Below, piece by piece: positions 2,271-19,377 of a stretch of DNA of 64,000 nucleotides. This DNA comes from Bdellovibrio svalbardensis. GTDB lineage: Bacteria > Bdellovibrionota > Bdellovibrionia > Bdellovibrionales > Bdellovibrionaceae. The notes below the pieces were generated by a model, which saw only the letters and a list, made by a program, of their open reading frames with translations, was not told where the DNA came from and made no database searches. Position 1 is the first letter of the stretch. Each line of letters begins with the position of its first letter. The stretch covers positions 124,001 through 188,000 of the forward strand of contig NZ_JANRMI010000005.1 of the NCBI RefSeq assembly GCF_029531655.1, given 5' to 3'. The position numbers and the translations under genes are program-made.

Positions 2271-2492
2271 GATCTTCCTCTCCTATGTTCTTTAAGCGTA
2301 GGCTTCCCCCCTCCCAGGGGCAAGGGGCCGTCTCAATTTAAGTTATTGAATTCACGACACAAATTGATCAATGACTTTTCGCATCACACGCAAACCAAAA
2401 GCCTTCCAAGAGCTTAGGACCAAAGGCGGGATTTTCTCGCCAAGCCTCAGACTTTACTCATAAACACCGAAGAGCCTAAAAGGAGTATCAAT

Positions 2493-3686
2493 TTGAGTTT
2501 ATTGAATCGCCTTCTTCGCATGACTATGGCCTTTTCGCTGATTGCAAGTTCAGCGCTTGCTGATATTCCTCAAGAGTTGCAAACGGTCATTCTGGAAGGA
2601 AATCTTTACGGACGCTCCTCTGTCGACTTCCGCAAAAAAGCCCGGAATGTCACTTCTTTGATTCCGCAGGGAACTCAAGGCACGGTCCTGGAAACTCGCA
2701 AACTCAGCCGCACCGGTTCTTACGGTGTGAAAATCCGCATCACTCAAGTTTCAAAAAATCTTGGCTCAACGACAGCTAAAGAAAATGACGAAGTGTGGGT
2801 TTACTACTCACAAAAAGATCCTTGGTTGAGCTTCCAGGATAAAGCTGGCAGCGATATTCAAGATCCGGAAGAAGCCCTCAGCAGCACAGCTAAGCGCGAT
2901 GGCGTGGGTTTGCCTGCAGAAGGTACGGTGCCGAATCCAACTCTGCCAACGAAAAAAGAAATTAAAGAGCGCGAAGCTCAACGCGAAAGAGAATTGGCCG
3001 AAGCCGAAGCAAAAAGAAGAGCTGAAGCTTTAAAAACAGTCGATCCGAATCTTGCGATGAACAAAGACAAGACTAAAACTGAAGGTGGTTTCACTGAAGT
3101 TTGTACAACTTGTCAGACCGGCACTGTTGCAGACAAGAACGTTAAAGATTTAAGTGCCGTCAGCAAAGAGGCTGAAAAACCAGCCAAATTATCAGACCCG
3201 AATGACCCGTGGGCCGATGATCCTTACATTTCCAAATACAGCCACAGTAAGAAAGTTGAAAAAGCGATTCGAGCTGCGAAAAAATCAGCGTCTCGCTCGA
3301 AAAGACTTTGCTATCGCTATGTCAAGAATGCCCTCCTTGCCGGAGACTTGATTGACTCGTATCCTCCAGGTGGAAAAGCCAAGCAAGGTGTCAGCGATTT
3401 AAAAGCTCAAGGCATGGTCAACCTTTTGGATAATCCAAAATATGCTTCTAGAATCAGAACTCCTGCTGACGCCCCAAAAGGTGCGGTCTTGGTATACAGC
3501 ACCGGCGAATCCAAAGAAGCCGGACATATTGAAATTAAAACTGGAGATGGCAAAAACGCCACCTACGTCAGCGACTATCAATCAGCAAAAAATATTCAAC
3601 AGACGACCAAGGGCATTTACAAAGCTAGAATTGGCAAGCCATACAAAATTATCGGCGTGATGATTCTTCCTCCGGGGAAATTATGA
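2493..3686 (+). CDS. Secreted CHAP/NlpC-like amidase with N-terminal SH3-like region
   Basis: A signal peptide (about residues 1-23, ending SSALA-D) is followed by a region that looks SH3-like (about 30-115), a charged Glu/Lys/Ala linker (155-185), a CTTC pair (204, 207) and a C-terminal domain (about 265-397). In that domain RLCYRYVKN (Cys273) and AGHIEI (His345) sit as the Cys/His pair of CHAP or NlpC/P60 peptidoglycan hydrolases. The likely substrate is a murein peptide bond, in the own or prey wall; this is inference. The start is TTG at 2493 with AGGAG 12 bp upstream. Its stop overlaps the next start (ATGA), so the two products are translationally coupled. Confidence 0.72.
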   Translation: MSLLNRLLRMTMAFSLIASSALADIPQELQTVILEGNLYGRSSVDFRKKARNVTSLIPQGTQGTVLETRKLSRTGSYGVKIRITQVSKNLGSTTAKENDEVWVYYSQKDPWLSFQDKAGSDIQDPEEALSSTAKRDGVGLPAEGTVPNPTLPTKKEIKEREAQRERELAEAEAKRRAEALKTVDPNLAMNKDKTKTEGGFTEVCTTCQTGTVADKNVKDLSAVSKEAEKPAKLSDPNDPWADDPYISKYSHSKKVEKAIRAAKKSASRSKRLCYRYVKNALLAGDLIDSYPPGGKAKQGVSDLKAQGMVNLLDNPKYASRIRTPADAPKGAVLVYSTGESKEAGHIEIKTGDGKNATYVSDYQSAKNIQQTTKGIYKARIGKPYKIIGVMILPPGKL

Positions 3687-4093
3687 TCAGAAAATTCTTA
3701 TTGATCACAGCTTTATTCTTTGCAACTTCGGCGGGGGCTGCAGAATACAAATCTTCGGAAGAAATTCTTAAGGACCTTGCGGTCTACACTTCCGCTGACA
3801 GCAAAAAAGACGAAGAACACTTGGCAAGCATCGTTGTAAAAATCGATGAGGCTGTTCAGTTTTCTTTGAAAAACAAACCCAGTGAACAACTTCTGCACGA
3901 GATTCTTCGCGTTTCTTATATTACTCTAAAAAATGATCCCACAGCGGCGGTCGCCGATGTTCTTGTTCCTCTTTATAAAAAAGACGAGAAGGCATTTAAA
4001 AAGGCCTTGAAGACTCTTCCGAAGTCAGAAGGAAATGCCCTTTTGAAGGCCATCAAACAAGCCATTCATGAAGAAGATGTTGGTAACGGCTAA
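3683..4093 (+). CDS. Small secreted protein coupled to the CHAP-like hydrolase
   Basis: This 136-residue protein has a clear signal peptide (MIRKFLLITALFFATSAGAA). The mature part is about 115 residues, Lys/Glu-rich and probably all helical, with no cysteine and no motif I recognise. Its ATG overlaps the TGA of the upstream hydrolase gene by 4 bp, which suggests matched expression. In paired hydrolase operons the small partner is often an inhibitor, chaperone or immunity protein. That role is only a hypothesis here. Confidence 0.7.
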   Translation: MIRKFLLITALFFATSAGAAEYKSSEEILKDLAVYTSADSKKDEEHLASIVVKIDEAVQFSLKNKPSEQLLHEILRVSYITLKNDPTAAVADVLVPLYKKDEKAFKKALKTLPKSEGNALLKAIKQAIHEEDVGNG

Positions 4094-7351: not shown

Positions 7352-8323
7352 TTAGTAGCGAGAGACGCTCAAAGAAGGACGTCCTTCGTTTGAAAGCACC
7401 GTGATCAAGATATCTGGGTTGCCGCCCATACCTTCCGCATTGATATCCACAGTCGTAACGCGCTCACGAAGATTCAATCTTTCAGACACGGCCTTATCCC
7501 CAGCATAGAAAGTTGGAGTTTCATCAAACTCACGCACATTCACCTGGCGACCAGTCTCAGTATAGACCGTTGCAGCATGGACTTTAACTCCCGCTGACAA
7601 AGCACGGACTTCCAATTGATCCACAGAAACCGGTCTAGCCAAAGTCACGCGAACCCATTCGCCACCAGAACGGCGGGAAATGCTGGAAACTTGCACTGAA
7701 CCTTCGCGGTTTTGTTGAACCGGAGCTGGAGGAGGAGGCACTGGACGAGTCGGAGCCGGATTGTAAGGAGCTGGGCGAACGTCGTTGCCACCGTAGCCAC
7801 CGCCATTGTCTCTGCCACCCCAACGGATGTTGGTTTCTTGAGTTTCATACCAAGAACCATCACGGCGAGTACACGCGATACCACGAGTGTCTTCCGTGCG
7901 GTCACTCAAATAAATTGTGCTGCGATATTCACGGCAATATTCGCCTGTGTATTGATTGTAACCTTCCCTAGTTGAAGTCACACGACCACGCGCACCTGTG
8001 CGTGAACCATAGCTACGTCCATCCCAGTCACAATTGTTATTCAAACGCCCCTCTAAGGCGCGGCGTTGAGCTTCTGCCACTGCACGACGATCATTTTCGT
8101 CCATGTTGGCGCCGACTTTACTGCCAATCATCGAACCCGCAACAGCGCCAATGATAATCGCTGCAGTATTTCCATTTCCTTTACCAATTTGGGTCCCTGC
8201 GAGACCGCCGATAAGACCACCGATGACTCCACCGATATCTTCTTTATTAACAGCGTGAGCAACACTTGCAGTTTGAGCGATTGTAGTTACAAGCAATGCA
8301 CCAACGATCATTCTTTTTTTCAT
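7352..8323 (-). CDS. Glycine-zipper envelope protein with a C-terminal beta domain shared with the upstream gene
   Basis: The 323-residue protein has a signal peptide (1-24) and a glycine zipper (about 30-72; GGVIGGLIGGLAG and IIIGAVAGSMIGSKVGA) of the 17-kDa surface-antigen type that inserts in or packs against the outer membrane. A central region with CREYRSTIYL and GIACTRRDGSWYE resembles the tail of that family. A Gly/Pro-rich linker (175-205) and a C-terminal domain (about 208-321) follow. That last domain aligns by eye with residues 58-170 of the product of 8440-9909. The start at 8323 has AAGGAG upstream. Role: probable outer-membrane structural protein; the C-terminal domain is unknown to me. 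Confidence 0.8.
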   Translation of the reverse strand: MKKRMIVGALLVTTIAQTASVAHAVNKEDIGGVIGGLIGGLAGTQIGKGNGNTAAIIIGAVAGSMIGSKVGANMDENDRRAVAEAQRRALEGRLNNNCDWDGRSYGSRTGARGRVTSTREGYNQYTGEYCREYRSTIYLSDRTEDTRGIACTRRDGSWYETQETNIRWGGRDNGGGYGGNDVRPAPYNPAPTRPVPPPPAPVQQNREGSVQVSSISRRSGGEWVRVTLARPVSVDQLEVRALSAGVKVHAATVYTETGRQVNVREFDETPTFYAGDKAVSERLNLRERVTTVDINAEGMGGNPDILITVLSNEGRPSLSVSRY

Positions 8324-8439
8324 GTTAGACTCCTTAAGTCTCTGCTCTGGATCACCAAAGCTAAATTTTTGAAAACGAAATCCATTATCCAAACTTTATG
8401 CCAACGAACCTGGTGGCAAAATGCCCTCTGTAAAAAGTG

Positions 8440-9909
8440 CTAGCGAGGGCGCGCCAAGTCACTGTTCGCCCAGTTGCCACCAACCAAGCCATTATCAAGA
8501 AATCTCAATACATAGAGGCCATTCATTTGAATTCCCGCAATACGGGCTCTGCGATTGTTTCTGCTGACAACAATAACGTCGTCATTGACGCAAAAGCCGT
8601 TCCCACAGCCCGTCAACAAAGCCAGGCTACTGAAATCCCAATTGCCACCACTGGTTCCATTATCCTGGAATGTCAGGACAAACTTACCATCAGCCTGAAT
8701 CGCCATCACGCGGGTAAGGCGGTAATCTCTTTCAATATTGTAAGCCATCGTGCCCACACAAACTTGGCCCACACAGCCCTTCATCACAGCTAAATCCGCA
8801 CGCGACCAACCGCCTCCGATTCCGCCATTATCATCAAAGCGCAGCAGTAAACGCTGATCAGCTTGAATGCCCACAACCGTGACACGTCGGTAGTCTCTTT
8901 GAATATTGACGGCCTGAGTGCCAACGCAAATATCACTCACACAACCAGACATCATCGCTAGGTCAGCACTGCTCCAGCCTCCGCCCACGCCGCCATTGTC
9001 GTTAAAGCGCAGGACGAGTTTGCCGTCAGGACTAATTCCAACCACAGTCACCAGACGATTATCTCTGCTGATATTGTAAGCTTGGTTTCCGACGCAGAAT
9101 TTCTCGTTGCAACCACTCATCTTCGCAAGATCCTTGCGGGTCCAACCAGCTCCTTGTCCTCCATTATCCAGAAAACGAAGAACGAAAGTTCCATTCGTGA
9201 TATTCACGATTTCTACCTGACGGTAATCTCGTTGAATATTAAAGGCGCGATCACCCACACACAGATCTTCCAAACAGTTTCCATAGCGAGGCGGTCTGTC
9301 CGGCACCGTAGGAGGAGGTGGTGGTTGCGGTGGAACGGGAGCTGGAGGAGTCGGCTGCTTCGGTGGTGCCGGTGGTTGCACCACTTCGCGAGGTTGAACA
9401 CTCAGACGCGGAACTCCGGCATTAGAAATAGCTTTCAATTCAAGATCGGATTCGGCCTGATAAGATTCGGCACGCAACTCAATAGCCATAATAGCTTCCG
9501 TCAGATTTAAGTTCTCTGACACCAAGGTGCTGGTGTCTTTCAGTACACCCGTTTCTTTGAACTCACGGACCGCGATTCGCTGCCCTGTCGCAGTGATCAA
9601 TGTAGACTCGTAGATTTTAACTTGGCTTTTTAATACTTTTACTTCCAAACGCTGTAAAGCCAACGCTGGCGATAGATTCACGCGCAGCAAAGTGCCACCG
9701 GTTTTTCGTGAAACAGAATTGATTTGAACAGTCCCGACATATTCAGACTGTACGGGTGATGGTGGAAGAGGTTGTGGGAGAGATTGCTGTTCGCCACCAA
9801 TATCAAATGGATTGGGCAAGTCGACGACGATTTCGTCAGCCTGAGCGACGCTCACACCCTGAACTAATACTATGGAGGCTAAAAAGCCCGATAGCCAACG
9901 ACGTTCCAC
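8440..9909 (-). CDS. Secreted protein with five Cys-anchored repeats of about 56 residues
   Basis: This 489-residue protein has a signal peptide, the same beta-rich domain as its downstream neighbour (about 58-170), a proline-rich hinge (178-208) and five tandem repeats. Repeats begin at Cys217, 272, 328, 384 and 440, each with a CVG start, an NIxRDxR core, an LRFxDNGGxGGGW segment and mostly a closing SADLAxMxGC. The even spacing and two Cys in most repeats suggest small disulfide-tied beta units. The GTG at 9909 is chosen over a TTG at 9921 because GGGAG sits 6 bp before the GTG. I know no named family for the repeat. A surface or adhesive role is inference. Confidence 0.8.
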   Translation of the reverse strand: MERRWLSGFLASIVLVQGVSVAQADEIVVDLPNPFDIGGEQQSLPQPLPPSPVQSEYVGTVQINSVSRKTGGTLLRVNLSPALALQRLEVKVLKSQVKIYESTLITATGQRIAVREFKETGVLKDTSTLVSENLNLTEAIMAIELRAESYQAESDLELKAISNAGVPRLSVQPREVVQPPAPPKQPTPPAPVPPQPPPPPTVPDRPPRYGNCLEDLCVGDRAFNIQRDYRQVEIVNITNGTFVLRFLDNGGQGAGWTRKDLAKMSGCNEKFCVGNQAYNISRDNRLVTVVGISPDGKLVLRFNDNGGVGGGWSSADLAMMSGCVSDICVGTQAVNIQRDYRRVTVVGIQADQRLLLRFDDNGGIGGGWSRADLAVMKGCVGQVCVGTMAYNIERDYRLTRVMAIQADGKFVLTFQDNGTSGGNWDFSSLALLTGCGNGFCVNDDVIVVSRNNRRARIAGIQMNGLYVLRFLDNGLVGGNWANSDLARPR

Positions 9910-10047
9910 GATAACTCCCAAAAAAAGAATTCATCGCATAACGTACAAACTTCGTGCTCAGCCTAAGAAACCCCAGATCCTGATTATTGAGATCTGAGGG
10001 CCACGGCCCTGTCTCAAAATTAGACAGAGCCGCCAAGAGGGTCACTT

Positions 10048-15988: not shown

Positions 15989-16018
15989 AAAAGCAGGCCC
16001 ATTGGGCCTGCTCGAAAA
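15988..16018 (-). terminator. Terminator downstream of the 16057-17073 gene
   Basis: AGCAGGCCC (15992-16000) and GGGCCTGCT (16004-16012) form a 9-bp stem with a 3-nt loop. On the minus strand a T run follows (TTTTTTATT). It lies between convergent genes and touches the stop of the plus-strand gene. Confidence 0.8.
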
Positions 16019-16056
16019 ATCTCAGTTCGAATTTCCTTGAAGGGATATCTATCGAT

Positions 16057-17073
16057 TTACTTCTTTACTACACTCAACTGAATTTTTGAATCTCTCCGCC
16101 CAAATACCTTTACTTTAATTTCATTAGCGGTCTTCATATTTACGATTGCGTAGGCCTCAGACACAGGAACACATCTTCGACAATGATCTTCGTTTTCGTC
16201 GTCATTATCGTCGTCATCTTTCCTGCCGACGTACTTCTTTGGGGGCAAAGTTTTACAGAAATCCTGCGGCTTTAAAACAACCGAACCATTGACAACTACC
16301 TCTGCTCGTACTGATCTATTGTGATCAGATACATTTTTAACTGTAAGGATATAAGTTCCTTCTTCTTTAAATGCACCGCTTATATTCTGAACTTTAGAAC
16401 CATTGAGATTACCAAGGTAAGATACCAAATCGTATTCACCAACTAATTCAATTTTCCCATTCTCAAACCTATATATTCGCGATTTTGAAAATTGATCGTT
16501 GGCAAAGTCATCATCCAATATAATCAGACGGCGCTGTACCGGTTTCTCAAAAATCGTAATATTCCTAAATATACTCGTTGCGGGATTCGTGGGATCCATC
16601 GGAGTAACGTCTTGCAGTTGCTTTCCATTCCATTTAAGGATTGTTGGTGACATAATAGCCACGTTATCAATCCTCTCTACAACCACCTCATCAATGCCGT
16701 CCTGATCGAGATCATATTTTGTTAACTTAAAACACCCCTGCAATTGATCTGGATCATTTAAAAGAGTCTCCCCCCCCGCCACATATCCCTTTTTGTCTTT
16801 AGAAAGAACAATCATTCTGCATTTCCCATTAGAAATGGCATATTTCACCACAAATTTTTTCTCAAATGATCTATTGAATTTTACTTCAACATAAGAAACA
16901 CGAACCCCATCACCAACTGTATTCGCAGCTCCATTTGAATCTTTTCTAAATTCCCCAGGTATAAAAGAATTTAAAACAGCGTCTGGCAGTTTAAAATCCG
17001 ATTTAGCGAAACATGAGCTATGCAACATCTGACTCAATAAAACAGCCGAAATACATTTAATCATTTGTTTCAT
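16057..17073 (-). CDS. Secreted protein with an acidic Cys-rich segment and one VCBS/EF-hand-like repeat
   Basis: The 338-residue protein has a signal peptide (about 1-23). Near residue 135 DLDQDGIDEVVV has the DxDxDG calcium-loop pattern of FG-GAP/VCBS repeats. Near residue 285 an acidic run (KDDDDNDDENED) is followed by CRRC. No catalytic motif recognised. The ATG at 17073 is chosen over 17088 because GGAG sits 6 bp before it. The coding strand has a run of eight G (plus-strand C at about 16790-16797), a possible slippage site. The region is more AT-rich than its neighbours. It follows the lysozyme-like gene by 17 bp. Confidence 0.7.
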   Translation of the reverse strand: MKQMIKCISAVLLSQMLHSSCFAKSDFKLPDAVLNSFIPGEFRKDSNGAANTVGDGVRVSYVEVKFNRSFEKKFVVKYAISNGKCRMIVLSKDKKGYVAGGETLLNDPDQLQGCFKLTKYDLDQDGIDEVVVERIDNVAIMSPTILKWNGKQLQDVTPMDPTNPATSIFRNITIFEKPVQRRLIILDDDFANDQFSKSRIYRFENGKIELVGEYDLVSYLGNLNGSKVQNISGAFKEEGTYILTVKNVSDHNRSVRAEVVVNGSVVLKPQDFCKTLPPKKYVGRKDDDDNDDENEDHCRRCVPVSEAYAIVNMKTANEIKVKVFGRRDSKIQLSVVKK

Positions 17074-17090
17074 ACATACTCCAATCAAAA

Positions 17091-19124
17091 CTATTGTTGA
17101 GCCTGAGTTGCTACAGGTAAATACTTATCCCACTTACTCCAAACATTACTATTGTAACTCATGGGTAAGATGCGTGCAGCCGCTAACTTGCTATTTATCC
17201 CATTATATTTTTGACTAGCTTTCCTCAGCAAGACCGAGAACTCATTAAAATTACCTACAGAAGATATTTGCAAAGGTGAATTGATGCTTGTAAACGCTGA
17301 TCCAAACTTCAGCGCCCCAAATTTTATGTTAACATCTGGATTGAACAGCCCCGCAGCGCGATCTGTTGGATCTATTGCAACTCCGGACGCATTTACAAAC
17401 TTAAAGTCAGCCACCATATAGTAATGAACTACATGCATTAGGCCATAGCTAGATGCTACAATTGTTTGAGCAGTGAAGTTATAATCATCCGTATAAGGGT
17501 TTGCCTTTCCACTGCCACTCGTTTGATTTCCTTGTCCAAGGACTCCTCCTTGTGAAACAACTTTAATAGCAGAATTAGCAACAGCCGACGGAATCCAATT
17601 CTGCCTAGAGAACCCAAATCCGCCATCATTGTTATAAAAAAGAAGATCCGAGCATAACGCATTTCTCTTTTCAACAATTTCAAAATCATTTCCTAGATTC
17701 TGTACTAGGTTTTTTGACTTATAAAACACTCCATAAATTGATCGCGGATAAACTGATGATGGCGCTCTCAAAACAGTTGGACTCAAATCTTTAATCAATA
17801 GATCGCCGAACAGAACTCTATTCTTTGCCCCAATAGATGCTCCCAGCAAAGTTAAGTCTTTAAGCGGTTCATATCTAAACGATAAAGGATCAAACGTTCC
17901 GCCAGTCTCGTGATCTATAGTTGCTTTTAACATTTGCGGAGGTATCCCAAATTGGTGAGCATATTTTATTATTGATTGGTCATAGTTTGAGTTCCCGCCA
18001 AACTGAGCAGGAGACACGACATTAAGAGCCAAATTAAATTCTGTTCCAGATTGATCTTCGGCAACAATTTTAAGGTTCTCTGACCCCATATGCAAAGATA
18101 CCCATTGCTGATTTTCTGTGACTAATCCCGCATTAAACAATAATCCAAGATGATTCGGATATAGAGACTTTTCCGTATCAATTGCTGTTATAAAATTTAG
18201 ATTGCCGTTTAGAACAAATTTCGCTGGGATGATAGTACCATCAGCTTTTAACAAGGTAAGAGAAGAGACTGCCCCTAACGCAAATGAAATACTTCCACCA
18301 TCTTTAATTGAAATGATCTGAGGCGAACCAACAGCCACACCATTTCTGTTGAGAGTTTGATTGGCGATTTTATATCCACTCGCCTCTGCGGGCATTCGCC
18401 GGATATTTAAATAGCTCATAAGCAAAAAATTAAGATTGGTGTATGCATCCGAATATCCGCTTGTACTTGTCGGCCCAATTGAGATGACATCTAACGGTGT
18501 ATCGCAGCTTACTGATGCATTAAGAGAAGTTGAATCTGTTCTTAGTGGAGCGATATAGTTTATAGTAAGCCCAAACAGCCCATCCGAAACCCTTGAGACC
18601 ACATTTCCGACACTACTAAAACAAATTGGACGACGCCCCTTTCCTACTACTCTGATATCAACTGAACGAGGTGGGTAGGCGTTATAAACATTAAGTTGTG
18701 CTTCGTCCAATGAATTCGCAGTCGGAATTATCAGACCAAAGTTAAACTCTTTAATAGATTCGCTATTGGTCCGCACTATCTGACTATATGCCCCCTGCTC
18801 CCCCTCTGTATTTTTACATATTGGGTAGCCAGCAAAGTCTTCACTTGCATAATATTGTTCCGCAGTACAACGAACGATTATGCCAGAAATGTTTAGCCCG
18901 GTCTGGATATTCAAGTATGAGTTTGGCTGATACTTTGAAAGAGCTTGTAGTTGGGCCGACTTCTGAATTGGATTTGAAAACAATGTAGGATCGCTAAAGT
19001 TATATAGTATACTGTTCCCAATGTATGAAGGGTTCACAATGGGAATGTCGCCATCGGAAGCATGAACACTTGAAACAAGCAGATGCAACAAAAAGAAAAA
19101 CAGGTTACAAGAGAGTCTTTTCAT
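17091..19124 (-). CDS. Large secreted protein with lysozyme/lytic transglycosylase-like region
   Basis: The 677-residue protein starts with a signal peptide (about 1-23). Residues about 25-375 are beta-rich without a recognised family. From about 384 IIKYAHQFGIPPQMLKATI-DHETGG resembles the start of SLT/goose-lysozyme folds, with Glu406 as candidate catalytic acid. FDPLSFRYEP follows, and SSYGLMHVVHY about 160 residues later resembles the second SLT motif (GLMQ). The likely activity is cleavage of murein glycan strands; this rests on motifs only. GGAG lies 9 bp before the ATG at 19124. The AT-rich gene is followed after 17 bp by the acidic secreted protein gene, probably one operon. Confidence 0.7.
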   Translation of the reverse strand: MKRLSCNLFFFLLHLLVSSVHASDGDIPIVNPSYIGNSILYNFSDPTLFSNPIQKSAQLQALSKYQPNSYLNIQTGLNISGIIVRCTAEQYYASEDFAGYPICKNTEGEQGAYSQIVRTNSESIKEFNFGLIIPTANSLDEAQLNVYNAYPPRSVDIRVVGKGRRPICFSSVGNVVSRVSDGLFGLTINYIAPLRTDSTSLNASVSCDTPLDVISIGPTSTSGYSDAYTNLNFLLMSYLNIRRMPAEASGYKIANQTLNRNGVAVGSPQIISIKDGGSISFALGAVSSLTLLKADGTIIPAKFVLNGNLNFITAIDTEKSLYPNHLGLLFNAGLVTENQQWVSLHMGSENLKIVAEDQSGTEFNLALNVVSPAQFGGNSNYDQSIIKYAHQFGIPPQMLKATIDHETGGTFDPLSFRYEPLKDLTLLGASIGAKNRVLFGDLLIKDLSPTVLRAPSSVYPRSIYGVFYKSKNLVQNLGNDFEIVEKRNALCSDLLFYNNDGGFGFSRQNWIPSAVANSAIKVVSQGGVLGQGNQTSGSGKANPYTDDYNFTAQTIVASSYGLMHVVHYYMVADFKFVNASGVAIDPTDRAAGLFNPDVNIKFGALKFGSAFTSINSPLQISSVGNFNEFSVLLRKASQKYNGINSKLAAARILPMSYNSNVWSKWDKYLPVATQAQQ

Positions 19125-19377
19125 AAACAATCTCCACCATTAAATGGCCCAGAATTTATCGCCATAAACAGAAATTACTTAAGTCAAATAATATTGATCT
19201 CTAAACGAGGCACGTAGATTACACAAGTGACTAAATGTTTGGACGTTAAAATTCAGCCACCTGAACGTGTGGCCGATGAAAAGGGCGAATCTACCCCATT
19301 AAAGACTGTGATCGAATCACACAACGGACGAAAATATTTCGGCTTTTGCATTTTGACGACGGCTCCTCACCAGCCGC

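Follow-up and report, generated by a model that had tools for sequence, protein, structure and literature searches.

A putative secreted wall amidase with a Tae3-like domain and its small helical partner, a candidate self-protection pair of Bdellovibrionota

In a 64,000-nucleotide stretch of the Bdellovibrio svalbardensis genome (contig NZ_JANRMI010000005.1, positions 124,001 to 188,000; hereafter the window), the stop codon of a gene for a probable secreted wall hydrolase overlaps the start codon of a gene for a small, apparently secreted protein. The question raised by this locus is what the small protein does for the enzyme. The preliminary description supposed a matched pair, in which the small protein could be an inhibitor, an immunity factor or a chaperone of a CHAP-like hydrolase. 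Here, the two proteins are characterized, their pairing is followed through the phylum, and the possible roles of the partner are weighed.

The enzyme and its overlapping partner gene

The enzyme gene (2493..3686, + strand) encodes 397 amino acids and starts with a TTG codon, preceded by the Shine-Dalgarno sequence AAGGAG (2480..2485, +). Such a start recurs among the enzyme loci: in 17 of the 30, counting that of the window, the best Shine-Dalgarno sequence belongs to a TTG and has a match of 5–6 bases. Residues 1–23 (2493..2561, +) look by eye like a Sec-type signal peptide, MSLLNRLLRMTMAFSLIASSALA (first codon read as M). They are followed by a probable SH3b-like domain at residues 24–119 (2562..2849, +), with beta strands in model m450749ff7245, and, at about residues 253–393 (3249..3671, +), by the catalytic domain, which is predicted to have a Tae3-like papain fold. 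The enzyme model, computed from an alignment of the window protein with 27 further rows, has a mean pLDDT of 81.4, with values of 91–98 in blocks from mature residue 221 on and of 87 in the last four residues. The structural matches listed for the N-terminal domain include 9a7d_A (YrvJ; Z 7.2), 8a0m_C (a capsule enzyme; Z 7.0), lysostaphin (4lxc; Z 6.2) and ALE-1 (1r77; Z 5.8); these scores of 5.8–7.2 all lie below the caution level of Z 8, and weakly suggest an SH3b-like domain. Relatives of the whole enzyme were found in 55 of the 99 genomes searched, and part of them match the N-terminal portion only. Further matches to the N-terminal domain only exist in other genus members, and at L057 (G000:C2 382000-387000) a paralogue of this domain precedes a different C-terminal part that belongs to no Pfam family; no ORF of at least 70 amino acids starts within 400 nt downstream of it.

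According to its model, the catalytic domain is closest in fold to Tae3, an amidase effector of type VI systems that has been crystallized together with Tai3, its immunity protein: it aligns with 4hz9_A at Z 15.4 and rmsd 2.5 over 117 of 118 residues, and with 4hzb, from the same Tae3 complex, at Z 15.0. The best structure other than Tae3 reached Z 9.4, with an rmsd of 17, and NlpC/P60, CHAP and related enzymes reached Z 9.2 and below. The entry 4hz9_A was also the best profile match among the sequences of solved structures (E-value = 0.0028, one distinct sequence), and in this profile alignment Cys273 falls on residue 23 of Tae3, with the GH..I and SD motifs also in register. Used by itself, Foldseek returned nothing under an E-value of 0.001 for either the enzyme model or the partner model. 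Cys273 (codon TGC, 3309..3311, +) is a cysteine in all 30 enzyme rows, and His345 (codon CAT, 3525..3527, +) is an aspartate in 11 of them. Asp361 (codon GAC, 3573..3575, +) lies in a Ser-Asp pair, of which both residues are invariant in the 16 rows of the enzyme-domain profile, and which aligns with the SD of Tae3. The residues Cys273 and His345 that had been assigned to the hydrolase were thus confirmed, and Asp361, as a third conserved acid, would complete a papain-like triad with them.

The designation CHAP-like applies only loosely, neither Pfam nor NCBIfam having returned any family for the window enzyme at E-values up to 10. The curated cut-off of Pfam CHAP (PF05257) was not reached; three of the 16 domain rows match this family at E-values up to 1 (best 0.022), and a Bacteriovorax relative of the enzyme scored 19.1 bits against the cut-off of 26. 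A search of PHROGs gave a single weak endolysin match (E-value = 0.1). The enzyme looks like a wall amidase, for which peptidoglycan would be the substrate. It is not a typical type VI effector, in view of its Sec-type signal (by eye) and of its own genome, in which VipB, the single type VI marker searched, had no match (an E. coli control was positive). A phage origin was considered and rejected: the enzyme had no match in 50,697 phage records (E-value up to 1), and none of 42 candidate stretches was confirmed in IMG/VR.

Tae3-like domains were also seen in sphingomonads, at seven loci (L188, L190, L191, L192, L194, L195 and L196). There, the domain follows LysM repeats (Pfam; both of the two proteins scanned, from the seven loci) and stands before a segment that matches SLT weakly (E-value = 0.05–0.3). 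A lipoprotein-like gene lies 7–63 nt behind each of these enzymes, with no Pfam family in the four scanned of the seven loci; the idea that its product is an LprI-like lysozyme inhibitor was dropped on this result. The sphingomonad enzyme and lipoprotein gene are possibly another, unrelated enzyme-partner pair.

The partner gene (3683..4093, +) encodes 136 amino acids and is one of 64 genes of its family. It shares the ATGA at 3683..3686 (+) with the enzyme gene, whose stop codon and the ATG of the partner lie in these four bases, as the preliminary description had it. The protein begins with a Sec-type signal peptide, again judged by eye, at residues 1–19 (3683..3739, +; MIRKFLLITALFFATSAGA), which agrees with the earlier view that it is secreted. 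The remainder is predicted to form a domain of six helices and zero strands (3740..4081, +; model m9e109a9c3c7f, mean pLDDT 86.8, pTM 0.80), which contains a DPT motif, DP[ST] in the family, at residues 85–87 (3935..3943, +). Across the 20 rows of the partner profile D85 is invariant and P86 is conserved in at least 90%. The chain ends in a Gly-Asn-Gly tail (4082..4090, +). Relatives at loci with the enzyme are 116–168 amino acids long.

A Pfam search with the 20 partner rows returned 55 families at E-values up to 1 (best 0.0023), and each of the best 25 of these matches at most two of the 20 rows. No ankyrin family is found among those best 25, nor among the four Pfam rows of the window partner (E-value up to 10). 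Entries of Tai3, the partner of Tae3, are absent from the matches listed for the partner profile and from the best 50 structural neighbours listed for the partner model; a relationship to Tai3 may nonetheless exist. The best structural neighbour has Z 9.1, below the level advised for helical proteins, and no structural relative is claimed. By sequence and model, the partner thus appears to be a new all-helical family, without a name in the libraries searched.

Layout was surveyed in 30 enzyme loci, including the window. A small ORF lies directly downstream of the enzyme in 28 of them, with an overlap of 4 nt in 13 pairs, an overlap of 1 nt in two, and a gap of 1–21 nt in the other 13; the exceptions are G010, which is cut by a contig end but in which both pieces of the small gene were found, and G037, which is without it. 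The arrangement is therefore not accidental. Though frequent, the ATGA overlap does not occur in every pair, and 11 of the 21 uncut genus pairs lack any overlap, with gaps of 1–21 nt.

Several other genes of the window are of note in their own right. Two secreted-looking proteins of 679 and 343 amino acids (17091-19130 and 16057-17088, -) have no significant Pfam match and are located in a stretch of lower G+C content (0.386 at 16001-18000); the larger contains GIPPQMLKATIDHETGGTFDP, which by eye resembles lytic transglycosylases. Two adjacent proteins at 7352-9921 (-) carry the Bdellovibrio beta-sandwich PF18820 (E-value = 2.3e-25 and 8.7e-40), and in G006 the place of these genes is taken by a run of four similar-looking genes. 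Because of this run, no HD100 locus tags are assigned to the pair from its neighbours; none of the tags Bd1047 to Bd1051 turned up in the literature searched.

Pairing of the two genes across Bdellovibrionota

The preliminary description suggested asking whether the two genes stay adjacent across Bdellovibrionota. A profile built from 20 partners was searched against the order (140 genomes) and the phylum (368 genomes), and the enzyme-domain profile against the order and 14 partner-bearing genomes outside it. Partner matches were found in 41 of the 140 order genomes and in 54 of the 368 phylum genomes, or 55 genomes altogether; G065 was matched in the order search and is absent among the matches of the phylum search. 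The 65 partner places correspond to 64 genes, the gene of G010 being split by contig ends. All 64 adjoin a gene for such an enzyme, 63 lying behind it and one before it, and no lone partner gene was found in the order and phylum searches. This is the reverse of what the preliminary description had named as its refutation, a small gene alone in most genomes.

Of the 64 partner genes, 61 are downstream of a match to the enzyme-domain profile, on the same strand and within 405 nt from domain to domain, the widest of these gaps, in G367, coming from partial matches. In G044 the order is reversed, with the partner 3 nt upstream of the enzyme. In G065 and G015 the partner is right behind CHAP-like Cys/His genes that are too divergent for the enzyme-domain profile, and the pairing persists with a different enzyme subtype (G015, the second pair of G020, and G065). 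A second, diverged pair type, in which a Cys/His CHAP-like enzyme of 216–225 amino acids precedes a partner that lacks the GNG tail, was seen at L156 (G020:C1 3109500-3114500) and L060 (G015:C1 274000-279000). Six genomes outside the order (G141, G169, G176, G177, G178 and G367) each have two or three partner matches beside enzyme-domain matches. These observations support a dedicated pairing of enzyme and partner genes.

The dependence runs in one direction. Within the order, the enzyme-domain profile matches 78 of the 140 genomes, and all 41 genomes with a partner match are among these 78, whereas in the other 37 no partner was detected. Fourteen distant enzyme loci were inspected: a member of the partner family is present at three (G060, G067 and G044), ORFs of 174 and 181 amino acids with signal-like starts, unmatched by the partner profile, occupy the partner position at two (G024 and G097), and the remaining nine (G037, G028, G030, G079, G055, G061, G084, G057 and G051) are flanked on neither side by a small ORF that convincingly encodes a secreted protein. 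Because 37 of 78 order genomes and nine of 14 distant loci are without the partner, the enzyme does not always require it; it is the partner that depends on the enzyme, not the reverse. One genus member, G004, is matched by neither profile. The pair is also not tied to glycolytic genes, since tpiA is convergent to it in G006 (L204, G006:C1 988000-1003000) and runs in the same direction in the window.

The Asp-type enzymes and the tail of the partner

In 11 of the 22 genus members that have the enzyme, His345 is replaced by Asp and Glu347 by Gln. These Asp-type enzymes form one clade (support 95/95), in which the change of His to Asp, coupled with that of Glu to Gln, took place once. Among the differences listed, H345D and E347Q are the only fixed ones at sites that are constant throughout the His-type and outgroup rows, and Cys273 and the Ser-Asp pair are retained in all 11 Asp-type enzymes. 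The window enzyme itself has an intact Cys-His-Asp triad. The dN/dS ratio of the enzyme domain is 0.008–0.049 in four Asp-type pairs and 0.014–0.022 in three His-type pairs, with a domain dS above 1 in three of these seven pairs and two more His-type pairs saturated and giving no ratio. By these ratios, the Asp-type domain is not in decay and remains under purifying selection. The partner evolves faster (dN/dS = 0.059–0.235, as against 0.008–0.049 for the enzyme domain in the seven pairs), and none of the 11 Asp-type members lacks it, its gene being split in G010 into two pieces at contig ends. The Asp-type proteins raise a clean question, namely, whether they are still enzymes. If they are inactive, no inhibitor is needed, and simple immunity fails to explain the partner there.

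The C-terminal tail is the other feature by which the partners can be compared. The protein ends in GNG in 45 of the 64 partners, in GHG or GDG in two, and otherwise in 17. In 43 genes the codons of the GNG vary freely, four Gly codons, both Asn codons and three stops being used, so that selection acts on the protein rather than the DNA. As a control, ORFs of at least 100 codons were collected from the window, from 15 kb of G006 and from 32 loci: 15 of these 698 ORFs end in GNG, all 15 being partners, and none of the other 683 does. The eight residues before the tail have a mean charge of -2.25 in the His-type group (12 members: 11 from the genus and G050), +1.55 in the Asp-type group (11 members) and -0.15 in the others (20 members). 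Between the His-type and Asp-type groups this is the most shifted eight-residue segment of the partner, and the next most shifted distinct places are segments on the DPT motif; the segment at partner residue 65 shifts in the opposite direction, by 3.0. The body of the partner also becomes more acidic in the Asp-type group (mean -0.36 to -2.60), opposite to the tail region. The charge shift would fit a position of the tail near enzyme residues 345 and 347, though as a single evolutionary contrast it is no proof of one.

Possible roles of the partner and known systems

We regard the pair as a self-protection module in which the partner is a dedicated inhibitor of a secreted wall amidase, a reading in which our confidence is slightly better than even. 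The first gene would yield a Sec-exported peptidoglycan amidase composed of a probable SH3b wall-binding domain, a linker and a Cys-His-Asp domain with the papain-like fold of Tae3, and the second, translated right after it, a small helical protein of the periplasm. The partner would bind the enzyme and prevent it from acting inside the predator's periplasm before the enzyme is released onto the prey wall, probably by means of its DP[ST] loop and C-terminal GNG tail in or beside the active-site cleft. Of this picture, gene order, pairing and conservation are established, as is, by a confident model, the enzyme-domain fold, whereas export, the peptidoglycan substrate, binding, inhibition, the part played by the tail and use on prey are inferences. 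An inhibitor is favoured because the Tae3 fold is held by a partner protein in type VI systems, because Bd3459 and Bd3460 of B. bacteriovorus share this gene order, and because dependence runs from partner to enzyme only. However, the Asp-type clade keeps its partner, partnerless enzymes exist, and no Tai3 likeness was detected in the partner. The earlier idea of a matched pair stands as regards dedication, with all 64 genes adjacent, but the Asp-for-His enzymes that keep the partner and the many enzymes with no detected partner speak against plain immunity. The small protein may instead be a dedicated periplasmic chaperone, an export factor or an activating subunit, which we see as possible though rather less than probable. 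An accessory of this kind would explain the linkage of the two genes equally well, since any dedicated accessory would never be found without its enzyme gene, and the Asp-type members better: there the partner is kept although neutralizing a Cys-His enzyme should be pointless, and both the enzyme domain and the partner are under purifying selection. Yet many relatives have the enzyme and no detected partner, so that folding is not generally dependent on it, and the fold nearest to that of the enzyme belongs to a protein held by an inhibitor.

It is rather unlikely that, in the Asp-type part of the genus, the Tae3-like domain has lost hydrolysis and turned into a binding module, with enzyme and partner as a structural wall complex; the enzyme of the window species may on this reading still be catalytic. 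The restriction of the fixed differences to H345D and E347Q, together with the single origin and low dN/dS of the Asp-type domain, would suit such a module, but Cys273 and the Ser-Asp pair, needless for pure binding, are kept in all 11, and the window protein has its triad intact. A common operon without any interaction of the two products is highly improbable: the gaps in place of overlaps in 11 of the 21 uncut genus pairs would agree with this, whereas the adjacency of all 64 genes over the phylum persists with differing enzyme subtypes, the pair occurs in more than one copy in some genomes, and it is once reversed with 3 nt between the genes. A further joint reading, doubtful as a whole, makes the GNG tail a product-like active-site inhibitor, or plug, that co-evolves with a still working Asp-type wall enzyme. 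There, the change from His-x-Glu to Asp-x-Gln in one clade would have been accompanied by a charge flip, acidic to basic, just ahead of the plug, and the Asp-type enzymes would have a new kind of active site, with Cys and two Asp. If this is true, the plug would represent a further, phylum-wide kind of predator self-protection.

The inhibitor reading can be set beside several known systems. Tae3 of Ralstonia pickettii (4hz9, 4hzb) is inhibited by its partner Tai3, which is reported to insert a loop into the Tae3 cleft (PMC6099711). The Bdellovibrio pair resembles Tae3-Tai3 in the modelled papain-like wall amidase fold, in the aligned Cys, His and Ser-Asp residues and in having a dedicated partner protein; it differs in that the enzyme carries a Sec-type signal together with a probable SH3b domain where Tae3 has type VI delivery, in a partner without detected Tai3 likeness (sequence profile and best 50 structural matches), and in the Asp-type active sites of part of the genus. 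NlpC/P60 and CHAP wall hydrolases (such as 6bim, 5d74, LysK 4csh and Spr 2k1g) share the superfamily and the order of the triad, at Z 7.1–9.4 only and with the Pfam CHAP cut-off not reached. Staphopain with staphostatin (1pxv) is likewise, by the title of the entry, a papain-like enzyme with a protein inhibitor, but reaches Z 5.5. Staphostatin is encoded by a linked gene and has a key inhibitor glycine; it is cytoplasmic and beta-rich.

Literature searches on Tae3 in Bdellovibrio turned up only another effector, judged by title, and the retrieved passages on CHAP domains in Bdellovibrio name another protein, Bd2744. A biological parallel comes from B. bacteriovorus, in which the endopeptidases Bd3459 and Bd0816 are reported to have a secreted protector, Bd3460, called the first such protein; its gene follows that of Bd3459 and is co-transcribed with it, and this gene pair is described there as absent from epibiotic strains (PMC4686830). 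In both systems, the gene of a secreted wall enzyme comes first and that of a small secreted protein second, secretion being judged by eye and the wall substrate probable in the present case, whereas theirs is a DD-endopeptidase with an ankyrin-repeat protector and the present partner has six predicted helices and no ankyrin family among its listed matches. How wall-eating predators avoid self-digestion is reported for one case, that of Bd3460 with the two endopeptidases, and the pair described here is another, phylum-spanning candidate, in which an enzyme with the fold of a type VI weapon seems to leave by the general export route. In short, the principle of enzyme and partner is already known, and what is novel here is the family of the partner and, apparently, a different way of exporting a domain of the Tae3 type. 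If the inhibitor reading is true, effector-immunity logic operates outside injection machines, in the ordinary export of a predator.
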